From NCBI GenBank assembly GCA_009917695.1, contig JAACJG010000009.1, forward strand, positions 62,001 through 126,000: a DNA stretch of 64,000 nucleotides, given 5' to 3'. This DNA comes from Candidatus Rifleibacterium amylolyticum (GTDB lineage Bacteria; Muiribacteriota; Ozemobacteria; Ozemobacterales; Ozemobacteraceae). Made by a program: the position numbers and the translations under genes. Shown in pieces: positions 599-43,710 of this stretch. The notes beneath the pieces are model-generated. The model did no database searches, was not told the origin of the DNA, and saw only the letters and a list, made by a program, of their open reading frames with translations. Position 1 is the stretch's first letter. The number at the start of each line of letters is the position of its first letter.

Positions 599-835
599 AT
601 TCGGGCTCTCGGCGGAATCTCATTCGCTACAACTCTCCCCAGACGCAAGCAAAAGGTAAAAAGCTATGGCTTTGCGTCAATACAGCCTGGCTCGGCCGAG
701 CTGCTCTATCCTGCGCAGCTCGGCATAAGCACATCCTTGTGCAAAAAGTTTTCGCTCATGAGGCCCGGCGCTCGACCTCCTGTCGCGCCGGTCATAATCG
801 CCATCCTGGCGAAGAAAACCCGCCTGCGCCCTTAG
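599..835 (-). repeat. dispersed structured repeat, long copy
   Basis: This gene-free stretch shares its outer and central blocks with 43582-43710. The right-hand block has GCGCAGGCGGG on the minus strand, the middle has CTCATGAGCG and GAGCCAGGC, and the left block has GCGAATGAGATTCCGCCGA then GAGCCCGA. Relative to the short copy it carries two extra blocks made of hairpins (about 694-741 and 764-812). It begins about 45 bases beyond the stop of the leftward VWA gene, and no terminator is visible between them. On the minus strand a weak stem followed by six T residues lies near 566-590 and could end a transcript. Confidence 0.75.
695..811 (-). ncRNA. candidate GGA-loop hairpin RNA (CsrA/RsmA-sponge-like)
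   Basis: Read on the minus strand, four hairpins follow each other and each exposes GGA in its loop. They are CGCCA-GGA-TGGCG (811..799), a CCGGCG/CGCCGG stem with inner CGAC/GTCG and loop AGGAG (791..765), GCACA-AGGA-TGTGC (742..729), and a nine-pair GCCGAGCTG/CAGCTCGGC stem whose loop holds AGGAT (724..695). The third contains ACAAGGATGT, which matches the published CsrA-binding consensus. Arrays of such hairpins are the hallmark of CsrB/RsmZ RNAs. No csrA gene or clear promoter is in view, so the role is inferred from structure alone; it may be a 3' UTR of the VWA gene. Confidence 0.5.
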
Positions 836-880: not shown

Positions 881-2503
881 TCAATCGAGGGTTTTGATTT
901 CGGGAAGGTCTGGCAGGGAAATGTCGAGCGAAGAACTGGCGCCTGACGGAGCTGTTTGCGCCGGTTTTGCCGGCTCTTCGGCCGCAAACTTTTCGCGCAG
1001 TTTCTGCTGATTGGCGGCAATCTCTTCGACGAAACGATTTTCGAGCTCCTGTAGAGCCTGAATGCGACTGGCGGTATTGCCGACAAAAAAAGCTTCGTCG
1101 AATTTTTCACCGCCGACCTGGGTCTTTTCGAAGTATTCAAGCTCGGCCAGGCTGCTTTTGAATTCAATCAGATATTCTTCGTATGCGCGCTTGCCCAGCA
1201 GTTCGATTTCCTGGCGCCTGAGATTGAGAAACTCGATGAAACGCGCGACTTTTTGACTCTCGGCTTCTCTGATACGTGGAGCTTCAGCCTTGGCATAAAA
1301 GGTTTTCAGCAGCCGATCGATGCTGCTGAGATGATCATCGAGATACCTTTTACGGGCGGCAAAATTCTGCTGATGCTTTTCTGCGGCCAGTTGATGAGCC
1401 TGATTGATCAGGTTGCGACAATCAGCAGCAGACAACCCCTGAAATGAAGCCAGACTCAGACCATGCACGGGCTGATTTGCCGGCAGCCTGATGCGGCTGA
1501 CCAGATGACTGCGATCGTCGCGTTCGAGCTTGAAGTGATCGAGCATTTCGTCGATACTCAGAGGCTTTTCCTGCTCGGCAGCGGCGGCTATTGCCAGAGC
1601 TTTGACACGGGTGGGAGTATGATACTGCCTGTTGCTTTCGGCTTCGAGACCGGCATGTTTGAGTGTAACCTTGAGCACGCGACTAGGCTGTTCTGACGCC
1701 GGAATCGGCGAATTATAGGAAAGCCGGTAGTGTTTTTTGAGTTTGAGTCGGGTGCTGAGTTTGTCACACAGGTCTGACAACTGATCGGAAGTCGCTGTCT
1801 GCAGATACCAGCCACCGGTTTCAGATGCAATCCCGCCGAGAAATTCAGTATCTATGTCATTGCCAAGGCCAAGAGTAATGACTCTGATATTCTTATCGAG
1901 CGCTGATTTAGTCACTTCGTGTGGTTCATGCCGCGAAAGACGGTGCTGGCCGCTTGGCGTGCTGTCCTGCCCGTCGGTCAGACATACTATGGTTTTGAGA
2001 TCGTTGATGCCAGCTTTGGTATTTAGCTCTTCGCATGCTTCATACAGAGCATCGAAAAGTGCTGTGCCACCCCATGGGCGTATCTTCGCAATTGAACCGA
2101 TAAGGGATTTCTTGTCGGTCGAAAAGTTGTGATCGGTGTCAATGTCGCTGCCGAAAGACATTATCGAAATATTAACCGGGCCGGCAAGACTTTTAACCAG
2201 AACCGCAGCGGCTTTTTTAACATCGGGCATGGCAGATTCGATGCTCGAAGAGCGATCGACCACAAGAATCAGGTAATGCGTAAAATCCTGCGGAGACAGC
2301 TTGAATTCAGCAATTGCTGTGGCGTTTTCTTCGACGGCAAGAAGATCGTTGGTCAAATCAAAAGGCTTGTCGTGATATACGCGCAACATGGCTTCAATTA
2401 CCGGAAAGCCGGAAGCGTCGATATGAGTAAGCCGGGCAGTTAGTTCTGCCGTATAGCCTGAAGCAGCTGTCATAACCATGATCAACAACAAAAGTATTCT
2501 TTT
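881..2503 (-). CDS. secreted von Willebrand factor A domain protein
   Basis: A VWA-domain protein of about 540 residues. I place the start at the internal ATG encoding MKRILLLLIMVMTAASGYTA. It gives a clean signal peptide and removes a 16-base overlap with the gene before it, and AAGGA precedes it. After an N-terminal strand-rich region comes a VWA domain with an intact MIDAS: DRSSS, the Thr of GGTALFDAL and the Asp of CLTDGQDS. The rest is charged and helical (long E/K/R/Q-rich stretches, probable coiled coil). It follows the fusion acyltransferase gene by 17 bases and is likely in the same leftward operon. The metal-dependent adhesion site suggests a protein ligand in the periplasm or at the surface; the ligand is unknown. 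Confidence 0.75.
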   Translation of the reverse strand, partial: KRILLLLIMVMTAASGYTAELTARLTHIDASGFPVIEAMLRVYHDKPFDLTNDLLAVEENATAIAEFKLSPQDFTHYLILVVDRSSSIESAMPDVKKAAAVLVKSLAGPVNISIMSFGSDIDTDHNFSTDKKSLIGSIAKIRPWGGTALFDALYEACEELNTKAGINDLKTIVCLTDGQDSTPSGQHRLSRHEPHEVTKSALDKNIRVITLGLGNDIDTEFLGGIASETGGWYLQTATSDQLSDLCDKLSTRLKLKKHYRLSYNSPIPASEQPSRVLKVTLKHAGLEAESNRQYHTPTRVKALAIAAAAEQEKPLSIDEMLDHFKLERDDRSHLVSRIRLPANQPVHGLSLASFQGLSAADCRNLINQAHQLAAEKHQQNFAARKRYLDDHLSSIDRLLKTFYAKAEAPRIREAESQKVARFIEFLNLRRQEIELLGKRAYEEYLIEFKSSLAELEYFEKTQVGGEKFDEAFFVGNTASRIQALQELENRFVEEIAANQQKLREKFAAEEPAKPAQTAPSGASSSLDISLPDLPEIKTLD

Positions 2504-2520
2504 CATATAGCCAGATTTCC

Positions 2521-5500
2521 TTATGCAGCCTGACATAGAGCTTTGCCTGCCAGTTCCTTGACACCGCGCAGATCGACCTTGCCGGTGCCAAGGACCGGAA
2601 TTTTATCGACCTTCACGAATTTGTCCTTCTTGGGAATGAACAGATTCGGCAGGCCCATTCCTGCCATTTTTTCGAGAGTTTCGGCAATCTTTGCTTCATC
2701 GATGGTGTGCAGAACCGCGAGAGTTTCACCTTTTCGCTCATCAGGCACCGAAGTAACGGCAAAAACCTTGATCTCAGAGCCATAAGCTTCATGCAGTGCG
2801 TCTTCGACCTTGCCATGCGGCACCATTTCACCACCGATCTTAGAAAAGCGCGACAGGCGATCGGTAATCTTGATAAAGCCGCTTTCGTCCATGATTGCTA
2901 TGTCTCCGGTGACATACCAGCCATCACGCATTGCTTTTTCGGTAAGATCGGCGCGACCGATGTAGCCCTGCATTACGTTCGGGCCCTTGACCAGCAGCAT
3001 GCCCGGGCTTCCTGGCGGCAACAGCTCACCGCTTTCAGGATCGACTATCCGCACCGAAACGCCTGGCACCGGGTGCCCGACAAAGCCGCGCCGCGAGCCA
3101 GACTGATAGATGCCCTGACCACGATAATCGAGAGTGCTGACAGTAATTGCGGGCGCGCACTCGGTTGCGCCATAGCCTTCTATGGGTCTGATTCCGAACT
3201 TCTCTTCGAAAGTCAGCGCGAGGCGCTCGCTGAGCTTCTCGGCCCCGGTGAACACTATGCGCAGACTGCCAAACTGGCCTGGCGAACAGCGTCGCATGTA
3301 AATCTGCAGAAAGGTCGGCGTGGCAATAAGAAAAGTCACGCCCTGATGCTCGACGATGTCGCCTATTTTAGCGGCATCGAGCGGGTTTGGATGAAATGCT
3401 ATGCTCATGCCAAAGCGAATCGCATACCAGAGCGACATGAAGCCGAACGAATGAAACAACGGCAGAATGCCAAGCAGGCGGTCTTCATCGTTTACCGTCA
3501 TCACCTGCCCGACCGCCTCGACGTTCGAGGTCACGTTGTAGTGCGACAGCATCACGCCCTTGGGCTCGCCGGTGCTGCCACTGGAAAAAATGACAGTTGC
3601 GGTCGAATCGATGTCCGGGTGTGCCGAAGCGCCACAATAGCTTTCGAGCCAGCGAACCGGCAGGGTGACAGCAGCTATCAGCGCACAGATTCTCGTGAGA
3701 ATGCCGACAGCGCCAACGACATCTTCCAGATAGACAAGATTAACGCCTTCTGGCATTTCGATTGCAGCTTTTTCGATAAATTCTCGGCTGGTGATAATAC
3801 TGGCAATGCCGGCCTGCTTTATTGCCGAAGTCATACCAGACTTGCCGGCAGTAAAGTTGAGATTAACGCTGACTTTGCCGGCCATGGCTACAGCCACGTT
3901 AGTCAGTGCTCCGCCAATGGTAGGCGGCATCAAAACTCCGACATACTGTTGATCTTGCCAGACCGGGGCGAACTGGCGCGCCATAGCAATAGTCGAAACC
4001 AGTGCTTTGAGGCGGCGAACCACCTTACCAGAAGAGTCTGAGAAGGCGACTCGCCATGGGCGTGTACGCATGCGCCTGATAAAGTAGTGATGCAGCGGTC
4101 GCGAGTCCTGGCGGCGGGTTTCCCATGAGCGGGTCGCCAGTTCCTGAACGGCAAGACGTATTTTGTGAGCTGGCGAATCAGAGGGCAGCGGTTCGCCAAA
4201 GGAAACAGTTATGGGATAGGGATAAGTTTCGGGAAGCTTGGTGAGAAAACGTCCGCCCGAACGACTGTAAATACTTCCCCAGACCCGATCGAGGCAAACG
4301 GGTATGATTGGCGCAGTACGGCCGCGCACGATTTTTTCCAGCCCGCGACGAAATGGCAGCATCATACCGGTGCGGGTCACCTGACCCTCGGCGAAGATGC
4401 AGACAAGGTCGCCTTCATCAAGGAAATTACCGGCATCACGCAGAGCGCGCAGTATAACTTTGAGACCGCCGGTAGCCGAAACCGGAATCGCGTGCATGGC
4501 CTTCATCAGTGGATGCAGCCAGCGGTTGTTGTAGTAAATTTCATCGACGATGAAACGCACCTGACGGTCGGTGCTTGCCATGACCAGAAAACCATCAATG
4601 AACGAGACATGGTTGGGAACCAGCAGGGCGCCGCCTTCGAGCGGTATTTTTTCGCCGCCGACGATGGTAAGACGGTAAAAAGTGTGGGTAACGATTACGA
4701 AAATCAGCCTGATCAGGAAATCGGGCAGCAGGTATATCGCCCACAACATGCCACCGGTAGTGATGATCGAGGCGAAAATCAGTATGCCAAGTGGCGACAG
4801 GCCGGCAGCGGCGAGACCGGCGGCGTTGAGCGAGCCGACCATGATAGCGGCGAAAATAAAAACGTTGGCGAGCGCAATGACGCCGCCGCGGCGCTCAGCC
4901 GGCGAGCGCCACTGTAGAATGGCATTGAGAGGCACGACGATGAAACCGCTGGAAATGCCAAGCGCTACCATTATGGCGAGAGTTGCATAGTAACCTGGTG
5001 CGAACAACCCGAATAACAGTGTGAGCAGGCCGACGCCGATGGCTCCGAGCGGAATCAGGCCATATTCGACCAGGCGGCCAGAAATACGACCGGCCCAGAC
5101 GCTGCCGAGGCCGACACCGAGCCCATAAAAAGCAAGCGGAAGACCGCTCATGGTGTCTGAGTTTTTCATACCAACAGTGAGAGTTTTGGCATAAACGAGA
5201 ATGTCCTGACCGAGCAGGCTGGCAACGGCCCAGAACAGACCTGAACCGAGAACGGCAAGCCAGATCACGCGGTCAGCAATTATCGCATTGAACGAGCCTT
5301 TGAGCGTATCGACAAAGCCCCCCTCACTGCGTGCAGCCGGCACCTGGGCAACACCGAACGAAGCGAACATGCCGACGACGGCAAAACCGGCGAGAATCAT
5401 GCCGGCCAGCCAGGCATCAGCGCCAACAGCATCGAGAATCAGACCACCAGAGGCGGTGCCGGCAATGATTGCGACGAACGTCCACATTTCGAGGGCACCG

Positions 5501-20442: not shown

Positions 20443-21927
20443 ATGAGCGAACCCCAGGCACCATATCTTGAAGACTCGCTTGAAGCAATACCCTGCGGGC
20501 ATTCCTGCCGGGCCCTTGATTTTCTTCAGCAGATTTATCATGCCGCTCCTGTCGGTATGGTAGTGGTAGATGACAGACAGGAAGTCGTCAGACTCAACCA
20601 GAAATTCAGCAGCCTGCTCGCTCTCGACTCAGACTCATGTATCGGAGTCCGTATCGGTCGTCTGCTGCCGACTCTGGCCAGCCGCCTGAATATTCTGCTT
20701 AACGATGTTTTGACCAGCATGACTGCACGCAACGAGCAGGAATTCACGTTCCGCCTCGATGGCGAACTGCGAACCTGGTCTATTACCGCGTACCCGGTTC
20801 GACGCTCTGAATCTGAAGCTGCCATGGTAAGCCTCATCATTCACGATATAACAGAGTTGCGCAAGGCTGAAAGCGATCTGGCCGAAGCACTCAATCAGAT
20901 CAGAACGCTCGAAGAAAAATTGCGCCTGGAAAACCAGCTGCTTAGAGATGAAATCACCAGGGAAAGCGAACACTCGCATATGGTCGGAAGCAGCCCAAGC
21001 CTGCGTGAGGCTGTCGGCAAAATCAGACAGGTTGCGCCAACCGATGCAACGGTATTGATCACCGGAGAAACCGGTACCGGCAAAGAACTTGCCGCACGCG
21101 AGATTCATCGACTGAGTCGACGGGCTGAACAGCCGATCATTGTGGTAAATTGCGCGGCTTTACCGGCGAACCTGATCGAGAGCGAGCTCTTCGGCCATGA
21201 AAAAGGCTCATTCACCGGTGCGATAGCTCGCAAGATCGGTCGCTTCGAAATTGCTGATGGCGGCACGATTTTTCTCGATGAAATCGGCGAAATGCCGCTT
21301 GAACTGCAGAGCAAACTGCTGCGCGTGCTCCAGGAAAACCAGATCGAACGAATCGGCAGTCATCGACTTATCGACATTGACGTCAGAGTAATCGCCGCCA
21401 CCAATCGCAACCTGCATGAAGAAGTAAAATCCGGGCGCTTTCGCGAAGACCTTTATTTCAGACTCAATGTCTTTCCCATTCATCTGCCGGCATTGCGCGA
21501 ACGCGGCAGCGATATAATCGAAATTGCCCGCGACTACATGCTCTTTTGTGCGCGCAAACACGGACGGCATGTAACGGCACTTTCCCCCTCTTCCGAAAAG
21601 CAGCTGCTCGCCTACGAATGGCCGGGCAATATTCGTGAATTGCGTAATCTGATCGAGCGTTCGGTTATTTTGTGTCATACTGACACACTTGCTGTCGAAA
21701 TACCTTACTCACAGTCTCTAACCCTGTCAGCCAATACGAAAACAAACGACAGCACGATGAGAACACTCGTCGAAGTGCAAAAACTTCACATTTTGAAAAT
21801 TCTTGAGCGCACAGCCTGGCGAGTTCGCGGCGCCCATGGTGCCGCTGAAATACTTGGCCTGAAGCCGACTACGCTCGAATCAAAAATGAAAAAACTTGGA
21901 ATATCGAGAAAAACCGCCGGCGATTGA
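20443..21927 (+). CDS. sigma-54-dependent transcriptional activator with PAS domain
   Basis: A 494-residue enhancer-binding protein. An N-terminal PAS domain (about 20-140, [18 protein letters not shown]) and a coiled coil precede the AAA+ domain. Walker A is GETGTGKE near residue 207 and the sigma-54 contact loop is GSFTGA near residue 255. Walker B is [11 protein letters not shown], with an arginine-finger region further on. A Fis-type HTH closes the protein ([22 protein letters not shown]). I use the ATG at 20443 rather than an upstream TTG. There is no receiver domain, so activity is probably set by PAS ligand or cofactor binding. A matching -24/-12 promoter lies 53 bases past the stop. 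Confidence 0.9.
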
Positions 21928-21980
21928 GCGACAACCGCAAATCCTTTCCCCTGGCGGCCTGGACTCGAATCAACCAATAA

Positions 21981-21996
21981 TGGCATGACACTTGCT
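21981..21996 (+). promoter_or_regulatory. sigma-54 (-24/-12) promoter
   Basis: TGGCATGACACTTGCT matches the RpoN consensus TGGCACG-N4-TTGCW at all but one position and has the required ten bases between GG (-24) and GC (-12). Transcription would start near 22007. It stands directly downstream of the sigma-54 activator gene and upstream of a 36-codon frame. Confidence 0.7.
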
Positions 21997-22040
21997 AATT
22001 TAATGCCAGCATGTAATTCACACAAGAAAGAGTCGACAGC

Positions 22041-22151
22041 ATGATTATCCTTTTTAACATATTGATGATCTGGGTAAGATTCATGATGTTCCTCTCTGCC
22101 GTAAAACAAGCTGTCAGAACCGGTCGAAAACAACAGGCGCAATATCGCTGA
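22041..22151 (+). CDS. 36-residue membrane miniprotein under the sigma-54 promoter
   Basis: ATG to TGA, 36 residues. The first ~20 are strongly hydrophobic (MIILFNILMIWVRFMMFLSA) and should form one membrane helix. The tail is basic and polar (KQAVRTGRKQQAQYR) and should stay in the cytoplasm. AAAGAG lies eight bases before the ATG, and the predicted sigma-54 start gives a leader of about 34 bases. It has no recognised family. A stem GGCTGTTTC/GAAACAGCC at 22181-22203 could end the transcript, although no T run follows. Reality rests on the promoter, the ribosome site and the helix. Confidence 0.5.
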   Translation: MIILFNILMIWVRFMMFLSAVKQAVRTGRKQQAQYR

Positions 22152-22171
22152 ACACAACACTCATTACACCG

Positions 22172-22396
22172 ACATGCAGGGGCTGTTTCCAGGCGAAACA
22201 GCCTGATTTCCGTATCTGCTTCCGCATTACCTTTGATCTCAAATGCAGCACTGTTGGAGTACATGGTAGTATCTGGAGCGACCATTTTGCCGGCTACGTG
22301 AGTTATCGTCGGGGAATTTATGGCGAAAACGGTCGAAGATGTGAATAGAAAAGCTGTCAGAAATGCACAGAGAATAAAGGCCAGGTTAGTATTCAA
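22172..22396 (-). pseudogene. remnant of a secreted-protein gene
   Basis: The leftward frame encodes a plausible signal peptide (NTNLAFILCAFLTAFLFTSS...VFA) and then an Ig-like domain beginning (SPTITHVAGKMVAPDTTM, FEIKGNAEADTEIRLFRLE). At about 22175 the sense stops and the frame continues as improbable Cys-rich sequence opposite the miniprotein gene. There is no ATG or ribosome site at its beginning. I read it as a 3'-truncated gene fragment. Confidence 0.4.
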
Positions 22397-22506
22397 GACA
22401 ATTCGTCTTCGAAAAGGGTTTGCCAAATCCCGGTCTGGTACATAAAAAACCCGACCGGCGGCTGCGCTGGGCCCCCTGTGCGGGATATGCCCCATGTATG
22501 CCCCCT

Positions 22507-22520
22507 GTTATTCGAATAAC
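22507..22520. promoter_or_regulatory. 14-bp perfect palindrome
   Basis: GTTATTCGAATAAC is a perfect palindrome in otherwise gene-free sequence upstream of the truncated leftward gene. It could be an operator half a turn from a lost promoter; no regulator can be named. Confidence 0.25.
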
Positions 22521-22597
22521 CCTTCAAATTAAGTGTAGAAGATTTTTTAAATTATGTAAAGGCGACCAGCCAATTCACCTTAATTCTCGATCAAACT

Positions 22598-22641
22598 GTC
22601 ACTGCGAAGAGGGCAAACCCGACGAAGCAGCTTCAATGCTC
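22598..22641. repeat. REP-like repeat (CACTGCGA...GAAGCAG type), copy 1
   Basis: GTCACTGCGAAGAGG and CGACGAAGCAGCTTC reproduce the widely seen intergenic repeat TCATTGCGAGGAG...CGACGAAGCAATCTC. A second, inverted copy is at 26311-26367. Confidence 0.55.
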
Positions 22642-22711
22642 AAAAAGATCATCACATCGCTGCCTGTGATAAAAAATGGGTAAATTCATAAAATTTAGCC
22701 CGGCTGATCTA

Positions 22712-22740
22712 TTGACAGCGTTGCTGCACAATGGTAAAAT
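22712..22740 (+). promoter_or_regulatory. sigma-70-type promoter of the second RNA candidate
   Basis: A perfect TTGACA (22712-22717), a 17-base spacer and TAAAAT (22735-22740). It is the best -35/-10 pair in the window and lies about 190 bases before the next protein gene. Confidence 0.75.
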
Positions 22741-22746
22741 CAATTC

Positions 22747-22900
22747 TTCCCAATTTTCAGATGGATCAGCTTGAGATTGAGAAATATTCTTCAGTTAAAC
22801 AACATTTTCAAGGCGAATAATGCTGCCAGGTGGGGCAAGACCTGAGCAGCGGGTGTTTTGTGTAGCTTTATCCCCGCAGCCAATGCGGGGTCATTTTTTT
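22747..22900 (+). ncRNA. candidate small RNA, ~155 nt, own promoter and terminator
   Basis: Between a strong promoter and an intrinsic terminator lies a stretch without a reading frame. Its core is the hairpin GCTGC-CAGGT-(GGGGCAAG)-ACCTG-A-GCAGC (22822-22850), which has ten pairs and one bulged A. An upstream CTTGA...TCAAG arm may form a second stem. The GCTG/CAGGT...GCAGC arrangement is reminiscent of the apical arm of small bacterial SRP RNA, but the GGAA tetraloop and the flanking symmetric loop are absent, so I leave it unnamed. Alternatively it is a regulated leader of the kinase gene, whose ATG is 30 bases beyond the terminator. Confidence 0.6.
22872..22900 (+). terminator. rho-independent terminator
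   Basis: CCCCGCA/TGCGGGG stem (22872-22878 with 22884-22890), loop GCCAA, then TCA and seven T residues. It lies before, not after, a protein gene, so it ends the short transcript that begins near 22747. Confidence 0.88.
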
Positions 22901-22930
22901 GTGGAATGAAATTATCAAAGAGGTAAACAG

Positions 22931-24628
22931 ATGGACGAACTACAGGAAAAGACAACAGAGAATAACGAAGAAGTCGAACAGGTGACGGTAACGCTGCCTG
23001 ATGGCAGCAAACATAAACTTGCCAAAGGCAAACCCATTATCGAATTGGCCCGACTCCTGCCACAGGAGCCGGATCTGCCCTATATATGCGCAAAAGTAAA
23101 CAATGAAGTGCAGAGCCTCGATTTTTCGCCCGAAATGAACTGCAATATCGAGTTTCTCAATTATAAATCGCCGCAGGGCCGTGACTGTTACCGCCGCAGC
23201 ATGACCTTCGTGCTTGCCCGCGCCATCATGGAACTCTACCGCAATGCTCGCCTCGCCATCGATCATTCAATCGGCAACGGCTTCTTTTACGACCTTTTCA
23301 CCGATGTTCCGGTTTCAGAGCATATTCTCGGCTATATTAAAACAAAAATGCTCGAGATCATCAACAAAGACGAAGCATTCGGCAAAAAGACCATGACCCG
23401 CACCGAAGCGATCGCCCTGTTCAATCGCGAAGGCTACCCCGAAAAAGCACGCCTGCTCAAAAACCTCAACACCGACAAGGTCGGCATCGTTTCGTGCTGG
23501 AAGTACATCGACCTTGATTTTGGCGCGATGGTTCCGTCTGCCGGCTATCTCAAGGTATTCGACCTCAAGCAGTATGCGCAGGGCTTTGTCCTGTTGTTCC
23601 CAGAAAATGACGATCCTTCGATACCCGGTCAGATAAGGCGTCAGCCCAAGATTTTCCAGGCCTATCGCGAAAGCAAAAGCTGGGGCAAGATTCTTGAAGT
23701 CAACAACGTCGGGCGCCTCAACGAGCGCATCAAGGACGGCACCATCTCGGATTTCATCAAAACCGCCGAAGCCCTGCATTCAAAAAAGATTCAGGAAATT
23801 GCCGACGAAATTACCAGTCATCCAGCCGTGCGCATCGTGCTGATTGCCGGCCCGTCCAGCTCAGGCAAAACAACATTCAGCAAGCGTCTGTGCACGCATC
23901 TGAAAGTCAACGGTCTGCGCCCCGTCGCGCTGTCTCTCGACAACTACTTTCTCGACCGCCAGCACACTCCGCGCGACGAACACGGCGACTACGATTTCGA
24001 ATCAATCTATGCTCTCGACCTCGAGCTGTTCAACCAGCACCTGAGAGAACTTCTCGACGGCAAAGTCGCTCAGATACCAGAATTTGACTTTCATACCGGT
24101 CATCGCAAGGAAAAAACCGACCCGATGCGCATCAACGAAGACCAGATCATCATTATCGAAGGCATTCACGGCCTCAACGATGAACTGACCAGATCGGTTC
24201 CGGCTGAATGCAAATACAAAATCTATATCAGCGCCCTCACCCAGCTGGTCATCGATGATTACAACCGAATTGCCACTACCGACACCCGCCTGATCAGGCG
24301 CACCGTGCGTGACAGCAAGTATCGCGGCTATTCTGCCGAAAACACCTTCAACCGCTGGCCTTCAGTGCGTCGCGGCGAAGAACGCAACATCTTTCCGTTC
24401 CAGGAATGCGCCAACACAGTCTTCAATTCTGCCGTTCCCTACGAATGGGCGGTATTGCGACCGATAGCAGAACCTCTGCTTCTTGACATTCCACCAGAAA
24501 GCCCGTCTTATACTCAGGCTCGCCAGATCCTGAGAACTCTTTCGTTCTTCGCTCCACTTGACCCCAAAGAAGTGCCACCGACCTCGATTCTGCGTGAATT
24601 TATCGGCGGCAGCTCTTTCCAGTATTGA
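22931..24628 (+). CDS. TGS-domain nucleoside (uridine) kinase-like protein
   Basis: A 565-residue protein of the TGS-plus-uridine-kinase family. Residues about 15-80 form a TGS-like beta-grasp (VTLPDGSKHKLAKGKPIIELA). Residues 85-230 resemble the threonyl/alanyl-tRNA synthetase second additional domain (DHSIGNGFFYD). The last ~280 residues form a P-loop kinase of the phosphoribulokinase/uridine kinase group with GPSSSGKTTFSKRL, SLDNYFLDR and EGIHGLND. Characterised relatives phosphorylate nucleosides; the editing-like domain is unexplained. The start has AGAGGTAA upstream. The TIGR02757 gene follows 13 bases later. Confidence 0.85.
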   Translation: MDELQEKTTENNEEVEQVTVTLPDGSKHKLAKGKPIIELARLLPQEPDLPYICAKVNNEVQSLDFSPEMNCNIEFLNYKSPQGRDCYRRSMTFVLARAIMELYRNARLAIDHSIGNGFFYDLFTDVPVSEHILGYIKTKMLEIINKDEAFGKKTMTRTEAIALFNREGYPEKARLLKNLNTDKVGIVSCWKYIDLDFGAMVPSAGYLKVFDLKQYAQGFVLLFPENDDPSIPGQIRRQPKIFQAYRESKSWGKILEVNNVGRLNERIKDGTISDFIKTAEALHSKKIQEIADEITSHPAVRIVLIAGPSSSGKTTFSKRLCTHLKVNGLRPVALSLDNYFLDRQHTPRDEHGDYDFESIYALDLELFNQHLRELLDGKVAQIPEFDFHTGHRKEKTDPMRINEDQIIIIEGIHGLNDELTRSVPAECKYKIYISALTQLVIDDYNRIATTDTRLIRRTVRDSKYRGYSAENTFNRWPSVRRGEERNIFPFQECANTVFNSAVPYEWAVLRPIAEPLLLDIPPESPSYTQARQILRTLSFFAPLDPKEVPPTSILREFIGGSSFQY

Positions 24629-24641
24629 GCTGACTGGCGTC

Positions 24642-25523
24642 ATGAAAAAACCGGCGGCGAAATCGGCTGATTTAAAACCTCTTCTTGAAAAGGTTCTCTC
24701 CGATTTCCCGCCGGTCGCACGTACCAAAGCCGACCCGATTCAATTTCCGCGCTGGTTTTTTGACCATGGCCGACCCGCCGCCGAAGTTGAAGCTGTCGCG
24801 CTGTTTGCGGCGATGCTCGCCTATGGCTCGGCCGCCCAGTTTATCAAAAAGATCGAGCAGACTCTCGACGCCTGTAAATGGCACTTTCTCGATCTGATAC
24901 TCGACCAGAAAAAGGCGGAAAAATTCGCCTGGCCGGCATATCGCCTGAGCACCGGCGATGAAATCGGCATATTGGCAAGAGCAGCCGGCCGACTTATCGG
25001 CCGCCACAAAAGTCTCAAAACCGTTTTTCTCAAGGGCTACAAACCCGACAAAAGCATCAAAGAAGGTTTAACCGCGCTACATAAAGCTCTCTGCCTCGAA
25101 GCCGAAGCGATTGCCGGCCCGCTCACGCGCGGCACCAGGCATCTTCTGCCCGACCCGGCGGCAGGCGGCTGTGTCAAGCGCTGGCACATGTTCCTGCGCT
25201 GACTGGTGCGACCTGAAGACGGTGTCGATATGAACCTGTGGCCTGAGGTATCCCCTGCCCTGCTGCTGATTCCACTCGACCGCCATATCAGCCGGATCGC
25301 CCGCAATCTTGAACTGACAAGCCGTGGCAGCGACGACTGGAAAACCGCCGAAGAGGTTTCTGCCAGCCTCGCCCGCTTCTGCCCGGAAGACCCGATAAAA
25401 TACGATTTTTCGCTCTGCCATCTTGGCATTGCCGGCGAGTGCACGCACGGCAAAGATCAGGAACTCTGCCGCCGCTGTCTGCTGGCATCCGCCTGCCTGG
25501 CGGCAAAGCCCGGCAGAAATTGA
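24642..25523 (+). pseudogene. TIGR02757-family (DUF2400) gene interrupted by one TGA
   Basis: Two in-frame open segments (24642-25202 and 25203-25523) together give a complete protein of about 293 residues of the TIGR02757 family. The first ends ...CVKRWHMFLR and the second continues LVRPEDGVDMNLWPEVSP...LIPLDRHISRIARNLEL...PEDPIKYDFSLCHLGI. In relatives FLR is followed by Trp (FLRWMVR); here the codon is TGA, one base from TGG. Everything before and after is well conserved, including the C-terminal cysteines. It is a recent nonsense mutation, a sequence error or a leaky stop. The family function is unknown. Confidence 0.75.
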
Positions 25524-25581
25524 CATGTTTCATACCCGAGAGTAAACTGACGCAAACACCAGCCCATTGGAGAAGCAAAAA

Positions 25582-26292
25582 ATGCTTGAGATTAAAGAAT
25601 TCTTTGCCCGACTACCCGAATTTGTCTGCCCTGAGCTTTTTGAGACCGAAGTTGAAGGCTTTGCCAGACTCGAAAACATCTGGGATATACTCAAAAGGAT
25701 TCAGGCCGGGTTCACGGCAAAATTCGTTAAACCCGAGATTCTAGGCACTGTCGAAGAAGGCGCTTTTTTGCGCGGCAACGACATTTATCTCGGCAAAGGC
25801 TCGGTAGTTGAAGCAGGCGCCATGGTCTGCGGCCCGGCCATCATCGGCGAGAACGTCGAAATCAGGCACGGGGCCTTTGTGCGCGGTCATGTGATCATCG
25901 GCAACGGTGCAGTAGTCGGCCATTCAAGCGAAACCGTGCGCTCGGTTTTTCTGCCCGGCGCCAAGGCACCACACTTTAATTATGTCGGCGACTCGATTCT
26001 CGGCTCAGGCGTCAATCTCGGAGCCGGCACCAAGCTGTCGAACCTCAAGAATGACGGTTCTAACGTGCGCACGCGCATCGGCGAACATGTCGTCGATACC
26101 GGCATTCGTAAATTCGGTGCGATTCTTGGCGACAACTGCCTGCTTGGCTGCAATTCGGTAACCAACCCGGGCACCATAATGGAACCCAATTGCATGGTCT
26201 ACCCCTGTGCCAGCATTAACGGGCATTTTGCCGCTGGCTCGATAGTCAAACTGCGTCAGAACATCGAAACCGCGATCAGCCAGAAAATATAA
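25582..26292 (+). CDS. left-handed beta-helix acyltransferase (GlmU C-terminal-like)
   Basis: A 236-residue protein. Residues about 1-55 are helical, then hexapeptide repeats form a left-handed beta-helix (GKGSVVEAGAMVCGPAIIGENVEIRHGAFVRGHVIIG). Motifs shared with the acetyltransferase half of GlmU follow: KAPHFNYVGDSILG and LGAGTKLSNLKNDG. There is no nucleotidyltransferase domain. It should transfer an acyl group to a sugar or sugar nucleotide in the cytosol. I start at the ATG with GGAGAA seven bases before it, rather than the in-frame TTG upstream. Confidence 0.82.
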   Translation: MLEIKEFFARLPEFVCPELFETEVEGFARLENIWDILKRIQAGFTAKFVKPEILGTVEEGAFLRGNDIYLGKGSVVEAGAMVCGPAIIGENVEIRHGAFVRGHVIIGNGAVVGHSSETVRSVFLPGAKAPHFNYVGDSILGSGVNLGAGTKLSNLKNDGSNVRTRIGEHVVDTGIRKFGAILGDNCLLGCNSVTNPGTIMEPNCMVYPCASINGHFAAGSIVKLRQNIETAISQKI

Positions 26293-26310
26293 AAAACTTC
26301 GCAGGATAAT

Positions 26311-26367
26311 GTCTCGATCTCGCAACAGTGAGACTGCTTCGGAGACCTCGGTCTCCTCGCAGTGACG
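26311..26367. repeat. REP-like repeat, copy 2 (inverted)
   Basis: On the minus strand it reads CACTGCGAGGAGACC...GAAGCAGTCTCACTG, the same intergenic repeat type as 22598-22641. It carries a GGAGACC/GGTCTCC stem (26341-26347 with 26350-26356) and lies between two convergent genes, where it may also help termination. Confidence 0.65.
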
Positions 26368-26374
26368 CTGAGGA

Positions 26375-26899
26375 TCAGAACTCGATGCCGGGGCGAGCTT
26401 TGATGCCGCGGTCGAAATAGTGCTTGTGTTTGACCATTCTGGTAACGAGGTCTGCTTTTTCGAGCAGCTCTTTGTCTGTGCAGCGGCCGGTCAAGACCAG
26501 TTCGAGATTTTCCGGGCAGCGGTCGATAAGCTCTTCCAGAGCCTTTTTATCGAGCAGTCCGTAGGTCATGCTGGTCAATACCTCGTCAAGAACCAGAAGA
26601 TCGAGGCGACCGGCGGCGATAATCTCTGAGGCCAGTTCTATGCCACGCACCGCCTCGGCTTTGTCTTCTTCGAGAACGCCGAACCTGAAAGTTCCATCAG
26701 GCTTCATGCGCTCGAGACCGGTAACATGATATTCAATTGCCAGCCGGTCAAGAACGACAAGTTCGTTATGACGATAAGTCTCGCTGCCTTTGTCGAAAAA
26801 AATGACGCCAACGCGGCGACCTGAGCCAAAAGCTCTGATCAACAGACCTACCGCCGCTGTCGTCTTGCCCTTCCCGTCGCCTGTGTATGCATGAATCAT
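26375..26899 (-). CDS. cobO: cob(I)yrinic acid a,c-diamide adenosyltransferase
   Basis: A 174-residue P-loop ATP:corrinoid adenosyltransferase of the BtuR/CobO/CobA class, which adds the adenosyl ligand to cob(I)alamin or cob(I)inamide. GDGKGKTTAAVGLLIRAFG is the family Walker A region. DLLVLDEVLTSMTYGLL is the conserved Asp/Glu segment, and ENLELVLTGR closes the core. No other corrin gene and no cobalamin riboswitch is in view, so salvage is more likely than local synthesis. It is the last gene of a leftward operon after two secreted-protein genes (three-base gap). Confidence 0.92.
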   Translation of the reverse strand: MIHAYTGDGKGKTTAAVGLLIRAFGSGRRVGVIFFDKGSETYRHNELVVLDRLAIEYHVTGLERMKPDGTFRFGVLEEDKAEAVRGIELASEIIAAGRLDLLVLDEVLTSMTYGLLDKKALEELIDRCPENLELVLTGRCTDKELLEKADLVTRMVKHKHYFDRGIKARPGIEF

Positions 26900-43581: not shown

Positions 43582-43710
43582 TCGGGCTCTCGGCGGAATC
43601 TCATTCGCTTCAACTCTCACCAGTAGAGAGCAATGGTGAATAGCGATGGATTTGCGTCAAAACTGCCTGGCTCGAAGTTTCCGCTCATGAGAAACCCGCC
43701 TGCGCCCTTA
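43582..43710 (-). repeat. dispersed structured repeat, short copy
   Basis: The same element as 599-835 but without the GGA-loop hairpin blocks. On the minus strand it runs AAGGGCGCAGGCGGGTTT, CTCATGAGCGGAAACTTCG, GAGCCAGGC, TTGACGCAAATCCATCGC and ends GCGAATGAGATTCCGCCGA, GAGCCCGATTAAGT. It begins 78 bases past the stop of the leftward HTH-PIN gene. The rest of 43415-43787 holds the promoter above and a terminal fragment of the same element. Confidence 0.75.

Follow-up and report, generated by a model that had tools for sequence, protein, structure and literature searches.

Paired GGA-loop hairpins carried by dispersed repeats in Candidatus Rifleibacterium amylolyticum: a candidate CsrA-binding RNA element

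The titration of CsrA by RNA is established in the Gammaproteobacteria, while the bacteria with FliW are thought to use protein antagonism. The CsrB/RsmB (RF00018), CsrC, and RsmX/Y/Z RNAs of the Gammaproteobacteria are single sRNA genes with arrays of A(N)GGA-loop hairpins, and the high-affinity site of CsrA or RsmE is an ANGGAN hexaloop, or CANGGANG, in which the N positions are variable (PMC7652899; PMC4894983). Outside this class, Gardner & Eldai (PMC4333381) predicted CsrA binding for TwoAYGGAY (RF01731, clan CL00106) in the Clostridia, and for the reverse strand of Bacillaceae-1 (RF01690), which has two CsrA-type hairpins, in the Bacillales, and a candidate antagonist RNA of Leptospira is also mentioned (PMC8668096). 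The flaA/hag leader of Campylobacter and Bacillus presents two adjacent ANGGA hexaloops, probably to one CsrA dimer, and the flaA mRNA acts as a titrator of CsrA in a bacterium that has FliW (PMC4894983). According to a 2020 review, it “remains to be determined” whether any species uses FliW and sRNAs together (PMC7652899). Given the predictions in the Clostridia and Bacillales and the Leptospira candidate, the novelty that the preliminary description of the present locus claimed for a repeat-borne or 3'-UTR CsrA sponge outside the proteobacteria is not supported in that form. The dispersed, modular form described here, in a FliW bacterium, does appear to be new, and a literature search of incomplete coverage retrieved nothing on CsrA in the Riflebacteria, nor any paper treating CsrA together with inverted-repeat elements.

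The window, that is, the whole stretch of 64,000 nucleotides that was analyzed, contains four consecutive GGA-loop hairpins on its minus strand (H1 to H4 in Table 1), which had been proposed from the letters and are borne out by both the sequence and the fold. The presence of ACAAGGAUGU in H3, within a GC-closed stem that matches the CsrA consensus, was also read correctly; it is compatible with the SELEX consensus RUACARGGAUGU, and the hairpin matches both the SELEX core ACARGGAUGU and CANGGANG (consensus from PMC7652899). The 141 nt between positions 680 and 820 fold at -60.6 kcal/mol, compared with -48.8 +/- 3.9 in shuffled sequences (z -3.1), and none of the 200 shuffles was equally stable. 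The GGA triplet is found in the loop of 2-7% of the perfect hairpins, in the window and the Markov shuffles alike, and three perfect GGA-loop hairpins within 130 nt are present on the real minus strand and in none of the Markov shuffles. The H2 hairpin is not seen by the strict perfect-hairpin finder, because it has a bulge. The four hairpins are not unrelated stems, given that H1+H2 and H3+H4 are tandem homologous copies of one two-hairpin module. In this module, as the comparison of copies shows, a U-run is followed by hairpin A, with 4-6 bp and the loop A(N)GGA(N), then by a linker UUAU(G/A), and lastly by hairpin B, with 7-10 bp, a small internal loop, an upper closing pair C-G, and the loop AGGA(N)(N).

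Table 1. Features of the repeat and of related loci; positions are those of the window unless a locus is named.
Feature	Position	Strand	Sequence or structure	Basis or remark
H1	798..812	minus	UCGCC-AGGAU-GGCGA	fold
H2	765..791	minus	CCGGCGC/GAC-AGGAG-GUC/ga/GCGCCGG	fold
H3	729..742	minus	GCAC-AAGGAU-GUGC	sequence; fold of module alone
H4	695..724	minus	GCCGAGCUGC/g/C-AGGAUA-G/a/GCAGCUCGGC	fold
GGA module M1	762..816	minus	H1 + H2, linker UUAUGA	R2 39.3 bits, E 1.4e-7 in window; also in L013
GGA module M2	694..747	minus	H3 + H4, linker UUAU	R2 74.4 bits, E 8.4e-16
Whole dispersed repeat, long form	602..833	minus		BLAST matches in own genome; copies compared by eye
VWA-domain ORF	881..2536	minus		name from earlier sequence reading; stop codon 48 nt upstream of repeat
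Terminator-like stem-loop	577..592	minus	GCCATCTTTGAGTGGC + AGTTTTTTAT	downstream of element
Short repeat copy without GGA modules	about 43582..43709	minus		BLAST match; copy comparison
Likely CsrA target, flagellin leader	L031 1150-1400; L169; L171		two ANGGA sites	
f5 element, copy in G035:C86	L328 120-420			
f5 element, copy in G027:C10	L330			
f5 element, copy in G033:C611	L335 about 1165-1408			

The hairpins are the cargo of a dispersed repeat, as had been proposed, and the long form of this repeat is composed of a basal stem (GGGCGCAGGCGG / CCGCCGAGAGCCC), central branches, and the two inserted GGA modules. The organism's own genome (5.39 Mb, 35 contigs) contains 41 BLAST matches to the repeat, most of them short and without the hairpins, as in the short copy of the window, which was confirmed. 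H3+H4 are present in 13 copies, one of them decayed (L012), and H1+H2 in two, the window copy and L013. A scan of genome contigs for the exact pattern revealed the same repeat in a congener, the MAG HGW-Riflebacteria-1, while the matches in taxa other than the Riflebacteria look like chance 20-mers. The elements of this congener (G002) have one or two modules each, and in a second congener (G005) one module occupies yet a third position in the element.

The hairpins occupy the convergent gap between the VWA ORF and an ORF on the plus strand (169-549). The preliminary description placed them in the 3' region of the VWA gene, and they do lie near its 3' end, but outside the gene, 70-186 nt past the stop codon. 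No promoter-like site for the element was found at this locus, and the VWA ORF is the probable source of a transcript running through the repeat. The one terminator-like site is weak, given that one was found and 0.6 would be expected by chance.

The conservation of the structure was evaluated in a set of 103 modules, 88 of them distinct. Standard pairs account for 91.5% of the pair cells in the distinct modules, compared with 62.3% in shuffled data, and 14 of the 15 base pairs have changes on both sides, with the GGA being kept. The covariation score was 0.630, compared with 0.139 +/- 0.011 in the shuffles and a maximum of 0.057 in the slid controls. These figures are biased towards the structure by the relatedness of the copies and by an alignment that had been fitted to the model, although the size of the effect makes it unlikely that model fitting and kinship are its whole cause. 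A MAFFT alignment of all the modules left the stems of the diverged M1 off by one column, and the pair counts therefore come from a structural table made by hand and from alignments based on the models. Compensatory pair changes with retention of the GGA, which the preliminary description had named as the support to be sought in homologous copies, are thus present in those that were tested.

The loops were also recovered without reference to their own sequence, through the pattern TTTTGN{12,13}CTTATRC, whose sole constraints are the U-run, the outer G-C, and the linker. This pattern has 87 matches in five genomes (30 when reversed), of which 63 form a 4-bp stem, and 55 of these 63 have GGA. 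Of the eight matches that form the stem but have no GGA, five are modules with small changes, and the only one of the 24 matches without a stem that has GGA is a decayed module. In the 25 distinct 6-nt loops, the successive positions are A (22 of 25), mixed, G (24), G (21), A (24), and mixed, which recovers the motif ANGGAN closed by C-G, that is, the published CsrA/RsmE motif, including its free positions. The small excess of G-U over A-C at the pairs (20:9) weakly indicates that the GGA strand is the one that folds.

The distribution of the modules was assessed using three covariance models, R1, built from 28 modules, R2, rebuilt from 59, and R3, based on a still more diverse set; the training copies of all three carried GGA, and the loop-blind searches serve as the checks. 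The R1 model recovered 22 modules in the own genome (G000), 43 in G002, and 27 in G005, as well as some in a second genus (G019), and its weak matches differ altogether in their stems and carry GGA in each of the two loops. The R2 counts were 34 in G000, 54 in G002, 47 in G005, 10 in G001, 9 in G004, 3 in G019, and 2 in G012, while the remaining 33 Riflebacteria genomes gave no match at E<=0.001, and a sample of 382 genomes none at E<=1e-4 outside this group. With R3 (E<=0.01), the counts were 37, 81, and 54 in G000, G002, and G005, so that the own genome has 34-37 modules, and the two congeners 54-81 and 47-54. No modules were found in another genome of the same genus (G003), which is 95% complete and has csrA, and they are therefore not essential. 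At one locus of G004 (L208, C466), four modules in both orientations form a dense cluster of GGA hairpins within about 300 nt.

Other elements of this type are found in the phylum. A second family (f5; G027, G031, G033, and G035) has an element that was found through a TwoAYGGAY search, and then R3, with 3-19 model matches per genome. This multi-copy element of roughly 190 nt has a long terminal stem; of its four GGA hairpins, three are CANGGANG hairpins, and its covariation exceeds that of the shuffles. Anchoring on the stems only gave 51 loops, of which about 50 are ANGGAN, and each of the four bases occurs at the N positions. The remaining loop, ATCCAT (in h1), probably comes from a match on the reverse strand, and a loop of 5 nt, AGGAG, which was entered as CAGGAG, keeps the GGA. 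In G033, the copy occupies the gap between csrA and the neighboring gene, and its GGA strand is antisense to csrA. The genome G011 has another dispersed repeat (L321, L322, L324, and L325), in at least three copies, with a long basal stem and two GGA-type hairpins, CAGGAAG and CAUGGAUG. Groups of CANGGANG hairpins are thus found on dispersed repeats in at least three settings in this phylum, the window-type modules, the f5 element, and the G011 repeat.

The element does not belong to a described family by score. No Rfam family was matched in the window at the gathering threshold. The arrangement of CsrB and RsmZ, with several A(N)GGA hairpins, is present here, with four in the window and two per module, but the gathering scores of their clan (CL00106) were unreached, with weak matches only, such as one to CsrB on the minus strand at 772-811, which is not significant (10.7 bits, E 0.8), and the sites are divided among dozens of repeat copies in a host with FliW, rather than being held in a single sRNA gene. 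Bacillaceae-1, a family reported from the Bacillaceae, has a weak full-length match on the plus strand at 753-812 (19.2 bits, E 0.35), below its 35-bit cut-off, with the GGA strand once again being the reverse. In form, the modules also resemble TwoAYGGAY, known from the human gut, gamma-Proteobacteria, and Clostridiales, whose two adjacent hairpins with AYGGAY-type loops are accompanied by an outer stem. The modules share the two A(N)GGA(N) hairpins, the first N being C or T in 16 of the 25 distinct 6-nt loops, but have other stems and the UUAU linker. Sub-threshold TwoAYGGAY matches fall exactly on two modules of the own genome (19.7 and 18.6 bits), and the best score in all 40 genomes of the phylum, 29.9 bits for the G011 repeat, does not reach the 43-bit cut-off.

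The csrA gene, on which the preliminary description had made its reading depend, is present in one copy (88 aa), in the order flgL-fliW-csrA-fliC (gene names from sequence likeness). Its product retains L4, R6, V42, and R44, as read from the sequence, of which L4 and R44 are highlighted as binding residues (PMC7652899), and among solved structures it is most closely related to 5dmb, a CsrA homologue. The leader of fliC contains ANGGAU, with CAUGGAGG at the ribosome site about 24 nt beyond it, an arrangement kept in G003 and G009, and it resembles the hag/flaA leaders. This leader is a likely direct target of CsrA. The hag/flaA leaders differ from the dispersed modules in being single mRNA leaders. 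The csrA gene was detected in 32 of the 40 genomes of the phylum, and in 12 of the 13 genomes with R3 matches, the 13th being a congener that is 75% complete (G001); there are no R3 matches in the seven other genomes in which csrA was not detected. This association (12/32 vs 1/8) is not significant alone, because many genomes with csrA, including G003, have no modules.

The feature is, rather probably, an RNA element of paired hairpins that binds CsrA and travels on mobile repeats; its GGA strand would be transcribed and bound by CsrA. A single CsrA dimer could hold the two loops of each unit, because these are adjacent A(N)GGA(N) hexa- or pentaloops closed by C-G. The units would be mobile or recombinogenic, lying within palindromic repeats between genes, MITE-like ones among them, at one to several units per locus, and in the window, two units, with four sites, would be made within the 3' UTR of the VWA mRNA. 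The summed copies might titrate CsrA alongside FliW, or tune their host mRNAs locally. The stronger version, a distributed CsrA sponge, in which the repeats seed each genome with roughly 70-160 CANGGANG-type sites, held in paired hairpins, and the strength of RNA titration evolves by copy number, separately in several Riflebacteria lineages, is a tentative proposal, and somewhat doubtful. The case combines FliW and csrA in one bacterium with dozens of CsrA-type hairpin pairs whose structure is conserved, and suggests a route, as the cargo of mobile repeats, for the origin and spread of regulator-binding RNA. If the sponge reading is true, CsrA would also be under RNA titration in a FliW-type bacterium.

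A CsrA-bound element may also act in cis on the stability, termination, or translation of the host mRNA, rather than as a titrating sponge, a possible but somewhat doubtful reading that overlaps with the favored one and, if CsrA binds, is about as probable as titration. In the window, the VWA stop codon precedes the copy and the terminator-like site follows it, and many copies are found less than 200 nt downstream of a co-directional gene. The flanking genes have no common function, however, given that the largest family among the 332 ORFs at 71 loci recurs at only five loci, and many copies are antisense to their neighbors. The gene upstream is on the same strand as the module in about 41 cases and on the opposite strand in about 29, and the tandem settings are sense in 20 cases and antisense in 13, neither being significant under the crude ORF calling. 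The proposed role in a 3' UTR fits the window copy, but is not matched by any significant strand preference relative to genes in the other copies.

This lack of a clear bias in orientation also keeps as a rival the possibility, an unlikely one, that the modules are mobile DNA hairpin doublets, similar to REP/BIME, recognized as single-stranded DNA by a transposase or another protein, with the likeness to CsrA sites being coincidental. The modules resemble REP/BIME and MITE repeats in being palindromic and dispersed in dozens of mostly intergenic copies, some with outer inverted repeats (TAGTCCTCTGTCACAT or TAAAGATTCAG) that, by eye, start and end in TA. Their insertion points also look clean by eye, both in the window-type repeat (AAACTT^CGAGCC, GGTTT^CTCATG, and CCCG^ACAACTC) and in unrelated palindromic repeats (gcaaagc^gtggcaatctc and gcgtagc^gagaaatctc), and Y1 transposase genes are present in G000, G002, and G005. 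The loops, by contrast, are conserved with a protein-binding motif, and the loop consensus equals the CsrA motif, including its free positions, in two differently built elements. None of the Y1 genes of G000, G002, and G005 has a module on each of its two sides, as would that of a REP/RAYT system, and no module was detected near that of G000, while no Y1 gene was detected in the module-bearing, but incomplete, genomes G004 and G019. A folding test for basal palindromes around the modules found a median of 21 spanning pairs, the same as at random positions of the same loci, and is uninformative for this reason, although several of the repeats are visibly palindromic.

The mimicry of Shine-Dalgarno sequences, with the loops binding 16S rRNA or ribosomes instead of CsrA, is highly improbable, given that, while some loops are AGGAG or AGGAU, the N positions vary, with many being AUGGAU, ACGGAC, or AAGGAC, which have little anti-SD complementarity past the GGA, and that the fixed leading A and the C-G closure would be left unexplained. 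The least credible reading is that of chance or hitch-hiking, in which the GGA loops would be kept only through the recent common descent of copies, many of which are near-identical, but the stems have been replaced by compensatory change, with the GGA kept, across genera and in a second family.

Some copies lie inside two kinds of outer inverted repeat (TAGTCCTCTGTCACAT... and TAAAGATTCAG..., at L025, L028, and L030, and at L005, L008, and L036), which are flanked by TA, as in MITEs of the IS630/Tc1 type, with one core thus having two outer shells. At three other loci (L229, L207, and L277), the modules adjoin, by eye, a degenerate sequence that resembles the 3' end of 5S rRNA, together with its terminator, and the GGA strand is antisense to this 5S-like rRNA. 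Further repeat pairs (D3, D4, I1, and I3), unrelated to the GGA element, are found in the window at 20698-26590 and 42151-63194.
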